33,897 nt of DNA from Betaproteobacteria bacterium (GTDB lineage Bacteria > Pseudomonadota > Gammaproteobacteria > Burkholderiales > CAIKXV01): the NCBI GenBank assembly GCA_947458835.1, contig CANHBC010000015.1, positions 1 through 33,897 on the forward strand. Reading direction: 5' to 3'. Of this stretch, positions 1 through 1,165 are shown one piece after another (within the stretch, counting starts at the first letter, position 1; each line of letters begins with the position of its first letter). The position numbers and the translations under genes are program-made. A model generated the notes under the pieces. It saw nothing but the letters and a program-made list of their open reading frames with translations. It searched no databases and was not told where the DNA came from.

Positions 1-582
1 CTGTGCGCGGTGCTCGCGCTGGCGCCACTGGGCGGCTTGCGACCGGCCGCGGCCCAGGCCGCGCTGGCCCGGGTCGGTGACCCGGCGCCCGCGTTCACCC
101 TGCCTTCGATCGACGGACGCACGGTATCGCTGTCGGACTTCAAGGGCCGGTACGTGGTGCTCGAGTGGTGGAACAGCGATTGCTACGCGATCAACACCCA
201 CTATGGCGCGGGCGCGATGCAGGCGGCGCAGCGGCGCGCGCGCGCCGGCGGCACTGTCTGGCTGTCGATCGACTCGACCCATCCCTCGCACCCGAGCTTC
301 CTCGACGCGAAGCGGGCCGCCGCGATGCTGCGCCAGTGGAAGGGCAGCCAGGCCGCGATGCTGCAGGATCCCGACGGCCGCACCGGGCGCGCCTACGGTG
401 CGATGGTGACCCCGCATGCGTACGTCATCGATCCTTCCGGACGGCTGATCTACGCCGGCGCCATCGACGACCAGCGGACGATGCGCGACCCGCGCAAGGC
501 GCGCAACCTGCCGCTCGCGGCGATCGAGGAAGCGCGGGCCGGGCAGCCGGTATCGCGCCCGCTCAGCCAGGCCTACGGGTGA
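1..582 (+). CDS. Redoxin / peroxiredoxin-like thiol protein, 5'-truncated; possible selenoprotein
   Basis: The gene is cut by the window edge; 193 codons are visible before a UGA at 580-582. The visible part opens with a hydrophobic stretch ending in Ala-Ala-Ala-Gln-Ala, which looks like the end of an export signal, so the mature protein is probably periplasmic. A thioredoxin-fold AhpC/TSA-type domain follows: VGDPAPAFTLPSIDGRTVSL near codons 25-44, one Cys at codon 61 (181-183), then HYGAGAMQ, TPHAYVID and YAGAIDD. These match the PRX-like redoxin family, known or inferred to act in thiol-disulfide or peroxide chemistry. Two oddities stand out. The usual Cys-Pro-Phe-Val is Cys-Tyr-Ala-Ile here. 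The protein also stops at Tyr-Gly just where relatives have a conserved Cys, and the frame continues after the UGA as Gly-Ile-Lys-Tyr-Ala-Gly to a UAG at 601-603. The true start lies outside the window. Family assignment is good; exact activity is unknown. Confidence 0.8.
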   Translation: MCAVLALAPLGGLRPAAAQAALARVGDPAPAFTLPSIDGRTVSLSDFKGRYVVLEWWNSDCYAINTHYGAGAMQAAQRRARAGGTVWLSIDSTHPSHPSFLDAKRAAAMLRQWKGSQAAMLQDPDGRTGRAYGAMVTPHAYVIDPSGRLIYAGAIDDQRTMRDPRKARNLPLAAIEEARAGQPVSRPLSQAYG

Positions 583-603
583 GGCATCAAGTACGCGGGC
601 TAG
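580..603 (+). other. In-frame UGA with conserved-looking C-terminal extension (candidate Sec codon)
   Basis: UGA at 580-582 is followed in frame by codons for Gly-Ile-Lys-Tyr-Ala-Gly and then UAG at 601-603. Recalled relatives end Pro-Tyr-Gly-Cys-Ser-Val-Lys-Tyr, so the UGA aligns with the C-terminal Cys and the following residues keep the hydrophobic-Lys-Tyr pattern. Reading the UGA as selenocysteine would give a 200-codon visible product. A single C-to-A change (or miscall) at 582 from a UGC Cys codon gives the same picture. The extension overlaps the 3' end of the convergent NUDIX gene by 17 nt. The selenocysteine reading is inference. Confidence 0.45.
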
Positions 604-1165
604 TCTGGCCCGCCTCCGCCGCCGTGCCGGCCAGGCCGCGTCGAGCGAGCCAGTAGGCGCCGAGCATCGTCTTGGTCTCGGTCTGCTCGCCGGAGTCGAC
701 CTGGCGCAGGACCTCTTCCAGCGGCAGCAGCACCGTCGCGACGAACTCGCCGTCCTCGCCCGGGTGACCCTCGTGCACCAGCCCGGTAGCGATGTAGTAG
801 TCGATCCGCTCATCGGCGTAGCCGACGCAGGGGTGCACGGTGAACGCGAACTCGAGCGACCCCGCGCGGTAGCCGGTCTCCTCGAGCAGTTCGCGCTCGG
901 CGGTGGTGCGCGAGGACTCACCGGCATCGATCTTGCCCGCCGGGAACTCGAGGGTCTCGCGGCCCACCGGATAGCGGTACTGCCGCACCAGCACCAGCCG
1001 CCCGTCGTCGAGCACTGGCAGGATGATCGCCGCGCCCGGGTGCCGGATGTACTCGCGCAGGGCCTCGCGGCCGTCGGGCAGCCGCACCCGGTCGCGCCGC
1101 ACCTTCAGCAGCGCGCCCTCGAACATGGCGGTGGAGTCGATGCGCGTTTCGGTGAAGTCGTCCAT
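587..1165 (-). CDS. nudF: NUDIX hydrolase, ADP-ribose pyrophosphatase type
   Basis: The 192-residue protein carries a complete Nudix box at residues 77-99: Gly77, Glu83, then RELLEETGY at 91-99, which fits GX5EX7REUXEEXGU. The preceding stretch LVLVRQYRYPVGRETLEFPAGK is typical of the ADP-ribose diphosphatase subgroup, which hydrolyses ADP-ribose to AMP and ribose 5-phosphate in the cytoplasm. A GGGGAGG ribosome-binding site precedes the ATG. The gene begins 31 nt after nuoN and is probably the last cistron of the nuo operon. Betaproteobacterial nuo operons often end this way, usually with a small DUF2818 gene in between, which is absent here. It ends 4 nt from the UGA of the convergent redoxin gene. 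The substrate is inferred from the family; GDP-mannose or other sugar nucleotides are possible. Confidence 0.85.
   Translation of the reverse strand: MDDFTETRIDSTAMFEGALLKVRRDRVRLPDGREALREYIRHPGAAIILPVLDDGRLVLVRQYRYPVGRETLEFPAGKIDAGESSRTTAERELLEETGYRAGSLEFAFTVHPCVGYADERIDYYIATGLVHEGHPGEDGEFVATVLLPLEEVLRQVDSGEQTETKTMLGAYWLARRGLAGTAAEAGQTSPRT
595..613 (+). promoter_or_regulatory. Stem-loop just after the redoxin UGA: SECIS-like, or convergent terminator hairpin
   Basis: Positions 595-602 (GCGGGCUA) pair with 606-613 (UGGCCCGC). That gives six Watson-Crick G-C pairs, one U-G and one A-U, closing a GUC triloop. The apical G is at 603, with 20 nt between it and the UGA; bacterial SECIS elements are described as having about 16-37 nt and a G early in the apical loop. 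No bulged U is seen in the stem, unlike E. coli fdhF. The same hairpin lies in the convergent redoxin/NUDIX junction, so a termination role is equally possible. No U-tract follows on either strand. Confidence 0.45.

Follow-up and report, generated by a model that had tools for sequence, protein, structure and literature searches.

Does the in-frame UGA near the end of a redoxin gene at the edge of a betaproteobacterial contig terminate the protein, or does it specify selenocysteine (Sec)? The window analysed here (i.e., the whole stretch of DNA, 33,897 nucleotides) corresponds to contig C15 in a draft genome of 3.76 Mb, and its lineage consists of uncultured betaproteobacteria, mostly from lakes. 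Comparative sequence analysis leads us to conclude with high confidence that the original observation is correct and that its interpretation is supported, i.e., that the UGA is most likely a Sec codon in a probably periplasmic, DsbD-linked redoxin; that Sec is actually inserted at UGA 580-582 is, if anything, predicted still more firmly. The argument concerns the following features of the window:

1..603, + strand: redoxin gene, truncated at its 5' end by the edge of the contig; reading frame 1-579, proposed Sec-UGA 580-582, tail 583-600, stop UAG 601-603
181..183, + strand: TGC codon of Cys61 (Cys37 of the mature alignment), invariant; putative partner of Sec
580..582, + strand: proposed selenocysteine codon UGA (frame residue 194; column 170 of the mature alignment)
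583..603, + strand: tail Gly-Ile-Lys-Tyr-Ala-Gly and true stop UAG; conserved, with silent changes
595..613, + strand: SECIS-like hairpin, 8-bp stem 595-602/606-613 and loop GUC 603-605; straddles the stop codon
587..1165, - strand: convergent NUDIX (nudF-like) gene, named from a NUDIX-like motif by reading

A redoxin frame that continues past its UGA

The frame holding the TGA carries an AhpC-TSA/Redoxin domain (E 4e-17), for which both PF00578 (62.8 bits; cut-off 26) and PF08534 (42.9 bits; cut-off 26.6) score over the Pfam gathering cut-off. Residues 1-24 resemble the end of a signal peptide, with the mature domain starting from about base 73; the copy in the window is without its 5' end, and this counts against the Sec reading. 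The preliminary description had the protein run Tyr-Gly-UGA-Gly-Ile-Lys-Tyr-Ala-Gly to a UAG at 601-603, which we confirmed in frame with the redoxin domain: TAC (574-576) and GGG (577-579) are followed by TGA (580-582), then GGC ATC AAG TAC GCG GGC (583-600) and TAG (601-603). Conventional annotation ends the redoxin immediately ahead of what would be its reactive residue. The remainder of the window (1197-33767, - strand) looks ordinary as read from its frames, with a nuo complex I cluster, secG, tpiA, pst, glmM, folP, ftsH, greA, carB, carA and dapB.

Cysteine outside the genus, UGA within it

When 100 related genomes were searched at the protein level, an internal TGA at the redoxin C-terminus was recovered in all nine homologues from the same Burkholderiales genus (the window and eight others, 71-88% identical). 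These proteins end YG-UGA-[GNS][VI]KYAG-stop, with one extra Ser ahead of the stop in G004. Distant relatives from the same order (38-51% identical) end YG-Cys-[ST][VI]KY, then stop. Seven of the 80 loci obtained from a scan of genome contigs belong to the same genus, and every other C-terminus read has Cys. Overall, Cys occupies the Sec column (YGCSVKY) in some 80 homologues from many phyla, the sources of the Cys form including Acidobacteria, Spirochaetes, Omnitrophota, Verrucomicrobia, Melainabacteria and other Betaproteobacteria. Wider sampling gave the same picture, no internal TGA turning up outside this genus either order-wide (399 genomes, 62 with the redoxin) or class-wide (369 genomes, 12 with the redoxin). 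The preliminary description had relatives end YGCSVKY, with the UGA aligned to their second Cys; relatives outside the genus do show Cys there, and the proposed alignment of homologues came out in favour of Sec, with UGA in nine separate genus genomes, Cys in that column elsewhere, and a conserved tail. Terminal codons at four other loci (TGA in L011 and L019, TAG in L016 and L021) were considered as Sec sites and rejected as the ordinary ends of Cys forms. One genome that carries the Sec redoxin is titled Bordetella parapertussis (L041, CAMDXD010000061.1); it is a lake metagenome genome of this group and seems mislabelled.

Across 53 aligned proteins, Cys37 and column 170 are both invariant (U counted as C) and are the only such Cys-type positions. 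The two invariant Cys that characterize the family, the second within YGC[ST][VI]KY, are thus both found in the genus, with U for the second C. In the tree, Sec forms make up one clade with full support, nested among betaproteobacterial Cys forms, a pattern most simply explained by one replacement of Cys with Sec. The stem branch of this clade is long (0.65), which counts against the Sec reading and makes some change of function possible.

Among the alternatives, the one that survives best, though we consider it improbable, is that the UGA is an ordinary stop, i.e., that the second Cys was lost, that the redoxin ends Tyr-Gly, and that the sequence downstream is a relic. The long stem branch would suit such a history, and UGA is the usual stop here, ending 24 of the 29 genes in the window; this same count led us to reject a reassigned UGA. 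A relic would decay, however, and in all nine species the tail Lys, Tyr, Ala and Gly are invariant and followed by the stop, though three of these codons change silently; the other two tail codons vary Gly/Asn/Ser and Val/Ile, much like the Cys family. Nor is the TGA replaced by TAA or TAG in any of the nine genus species. The conservation of the hairpin at a fixed distance and the presence of all sel genes, both described below, also speak against an ordinary stop.

A SECIS-like hairpin straddling the stop codon

Bacterial SECIS elements follow a published rule: a loop of 3-9 nt, a stem of 4-16 bp, a G in the first two loop positions, a spacing of 16-37 nt, and a stability of at most -7.5 kcal/mol (PMC13188914). 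The 8-bp stem (arms GCGGGCUA, 595-602, and UGGCCCGC, 606-613) with a GUC triloop, previously placed about 20 nt past the UGA, is indeed present with a spacing within this rule; 20 nt separate UGA and loop, G603 being the 21st nucleotide past the UGA. At -13.0 kcal/mol, 8 bp and 20 nt, the hairpin of the window satisfies the rule in full, and eight of the nine genus species pass it with a perfect stem. The exception, L003, has one stem mismatch and fails (perfect-stem score -3.9), which counts against the Sec reading. In G004, the hairpin has the loop AGUUA and a 6-bp stem and lies 18 nt past the UGA. The SelD gene of the window's own genome has a SECIS-like hairpin as well, with the loop GGU and an identical 20-nt spacing from its UGA.

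On the proposed SECIS check, the rule holds in the window and in eight of nine species, but a hairpin of this kind is by itself not rare, for in G+C-rich DNA such as this they often arise by chance. Among the TGA triplets of the window (both strands), 13% precede a rule-passing hairpin at -7.5 kcal/mol, and in 8 of 82 relatives the Cys codon is followed by a hairpin that passes -7.5 kcal/mol (in 4, by one that passes -12), such that a lone hairpin is weak evidence; only 1.4% of the TGA triplets precede one as stable as -13 kcal/mol. The stronger sign, and the one that exceeds chance, is that the hairpin is conserved across the genus at an unchanging distance. In eight species, identity is 95% over the 14 nt past the stop but only 55% over the 46 nt that follow. 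In the stem alignment, 98.6% of cells are paired, with two G-U changes and no two-sided compensatory change. An Rfam search of the window returned no match.

Another unlikely reading is that the hairpin is kept as a transcription end or through NUDIX coding, with Sec insertion being either SECIS-free or absent. The hairpin does sit between convergent genes, and in L001 and L008 it overlaps the NUDIX frame, the last codons of which (protein end AGQTSPRT) are antisense to it. However, the stem is without a following run of U in all nine sequences, on which ground an intrinsic terminator was rejected. Moreover, L003, L004, L006 and L007 retain the hairpin with their NUDIX gene ending 72-125 nt away from the UGA, and in G001, which has dsbD without an adjacent redoxin, the NUDIX frame lacks an AGQTSPRT-type tail. 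NUDIX coding is thus not the cause of hairpin conservation, and we rejected it on the basis of these five cases. Across the species, the ends of the NUDIX gene shift around the fixed hairpin.

Machinery for selenocysteine insertion

The presence of selA, selB, selC and selD had been named as a check, and all four are found in the window's genome. On its contig C4, selA (582 bits against TIGR00474), selB (419 bits) and tRNA-SeC (anticodon TCA) lie side by side as an operon. Within the genus, selD is encoded in 11 of 11 genomes, and every copy has a TGA in frame within its GGGUGCK motif, such that SelD is itself a selenoprotein. The tRNA-Sec was detected at 73-79 bits in 10 of the 11 genomes and SelB over the cut-off in nine, the remaining two being fragmented drafts. 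A second "redoxin" close to selD (L002) was rejected as a Sec protein; it matches PrxQ-type peroxiredoxins and is without a UGA. In G001, we observed two full-length selB genes, at C282:14056-15945 (L149; 435 bits) and C223:4380-6275 (L159; 417 bits), of which the copy on C282 adjoins tRNA-Sec and a selenium-type formate dehydrogenase; either duplication or contamination (5%) would account for the pair.

Low-level readthrough of UGA is known in bacteria, and given the conserved tail, a near-cognate tRNA (Trp, Cys or other) could be imagined to read the codon without selenium, yielding a mix of short and long protein. We regard this as very improbable: the UGA replaces an otherwise invariant Cys, a full Sec system and a UGA-containing SelD are present, and the hairpin conserved downstream, whose loop opens with G, fits SelB. 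Least probable of all is that TGC or TGT was misread or misassembled as TGA: although all of the genomes are drafts, mostly metagenome-assembled, the identical TGA occurs in nine assemblies of different species, and a shared identical error is not credible.

Genomic pairing with dsbD, and predicted export and fold

Directly upstream of the redoxin, in the genus and in most relatives across many phyla, lies dsbD. In L163, the full-length redoxin begins 32 nt past a dsbD with the domains DsbD_N, DsbD_TM and Thioredoxin_7; it has a signal-like leader (judged by eye), suggestive of a periplasmic protein. Export of the redoxin to the periplasm is thus considered highly probable from its sequence. 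In the window's genome, dsbD is found at the edge of contig C156 and the redoxin at the edge of the window, consistent with an assembly break.

An AlphaFold2 model (with U built as Cys) is confident and thioredoxin-like, with a pLDDT of 95.9, and positions Cys37 just ahead of a helix, as in thioredoxin folds. The nearest solved structures are 3u5r, 2ywi and 2cvb/2ywo (TM 0.81-0.86), of which 2ywi and 3u5r retain both Cys of the redoxin family. The canonical peroxiredoxin motif PxxxTxxC is absent; the genus instead has LEWWNS[DEQ]C, with Leu for Pro and Asn for Thr, and peroxidase activity is therefore possible, not assured.

Proposed mechanism

In the model that we favour, the C-terminal Cys of the family would have been replaced once by Sec, in an ancestor of this Burkholderiales genus. 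UGA 580-582 would be decoded by Sec-tRNA(UCA) and SelB, aided by the hairpin at 595-613, following which the ribosome would add six residues past Sec before terminating within the hairpin, at UAG 601-603. Once the protein is exported, Cys61 and Sec (Cys37 and Sec170 in mature-alignment numbering) would form a selenenylsulfide in the course of a peroxidase or disulfide-reductase cycle, and DsbD would then reduce this bond with electrons from the cytoplasm. The pairing of Cys61 with Sec is suggested by their being the only two invariant Cys-type positions in the 53 homologues; both this bond and DsbD as its reductant are put forward with moderate confidence. Sec would thus occupy the distal position of the redoxin, probably in a resolving or shuttling role.

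Relation to known redoxins and selenoproteins

The closest known proteins are those of the Cys-type PRX-like family ending YGCSVKY (2ywi from Geobacillus, 3u5r/SMc02350 from Sinorhizobium, and 2cvb/2ywo from Thermus), which share the fold and match over the full-length sequence. The Sec redoxin differs from them in having Sec at the C-terminal position and WWNSDCYAIN in place of NxxCPFV around the first Cys.

Mammalian thioredoxin reductase has its Sec very near the C-terminus and is hence truncated by conventional annotation. It is an unrelated flavoprotein with adjacent Cys and Sec, and the likeness is one of placement only. Among bacterial selenoproteins, a 2026 catalogue of 119 families includes redoxin types with UxxC, UxxU, UxxS, UGC, TxxU or similar motifs (PMC13188914). 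Of these, the PF08534 redoxin (UxxC) and the PF00578 Prx-like oxidoreductase (UxxC, UxxU) belong to the same Pfam families as the genus protein and likewise combine a thioredoxin-like fold with a Sec redox residue (PMC13188914). Their Sec, however, lies in an N-terminal motif; the genus redoxin lacks N-terminal UxxC/UxxU and has Cys there, with its proposed Sec seven residues from the C-terminus. The selenoprotein peroxiredoxin (TxxU) also pairs an AhpC-TSA domain with Sec (PMC13188914), but its Sec is peroxidatic, whereas that of the genus aligns with the distal Cys. Comparable in its working principle is the ScsB-TlpA-PprX pathway of Caulobacter, which scavenges peroxide in the envelope and resembles our proposal in that a DsbD-type membrane electron transporter feeds a periplasmic redoxin (PMC5403849); that pathway has no Sec, and the comparison implies no family kinship with PprX.

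A C-terminal YGU[GNS]xKY redoxin is absent from the 2026 catalogue of 119 families (PMC13188914). It is not covered by any model of NCBIfam release 20 (32 bits at best, cut-off 170). Neither deep-Sep nor the 2016 and 2022 surveys mention a fitting selenoprotein in their main texts, and a literature search confined largely to papers outside subscription found no DsbD-linked or C-terminal-Sec redoxins. The genus redoxin is thus predicted to be a Cys-to-Sec form, previously uncatalogued, of a known redoxin family.

Possible reasons for retaining the Sec machinery

Only two of the 11 genus genomes yielded a selenium-type formate dehydrogenase (TIGR01553 with TGA), each gene with one in-frame TGA:

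G001:C282:18903-21974 (L213): selenium-type formate dehydrogenase
G004:C259:2603-5776 (L214): selenium-type formate dehydrogenase

G004 has both this enzyme and the redoxin, and G001 the enzyme without the redoxin. The redoxin is absent from two of the 11 genomes, i.e., G001, from which it looks to have been lost, and G008, an 83% draft; these absences count against the Sec reading. At the corresponding site in G001 (L197, G001:C80:12969-18131), dsbD is followed directly by a PilZ-like frame and then the NUDIX gene. In the remaining species, the Sec proteins identified are SelD and the redoxin, with SelD alone in G008. With formate dehydrogenase in so few genomes, the redoxin may be the main reason that the Sec machinery is kept; that in most species of the genus this machinery serves chiefly or solely the redoxin, SelD itself aside, is a tentative suggestion, about which we are more doubtful than confident. 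On that view, the lineage would be retaining the 21st amino acid for the sake of a redoxin in the periplasm.

If true, our reading would enlarge the list of selenoproteins by a (sub)family whose Sec sits at the distal position of the redoxin and not in the N-terminal motif, and would bring selenium chemistry into the reductive pathway that DsbD serves in the cell envelope. With one Cys-to-Sec event, many Cys relatives, solved structures for the family, and a hairpin spanning the stop codon, the genus would also provide a clean test case for what Sec contributes.
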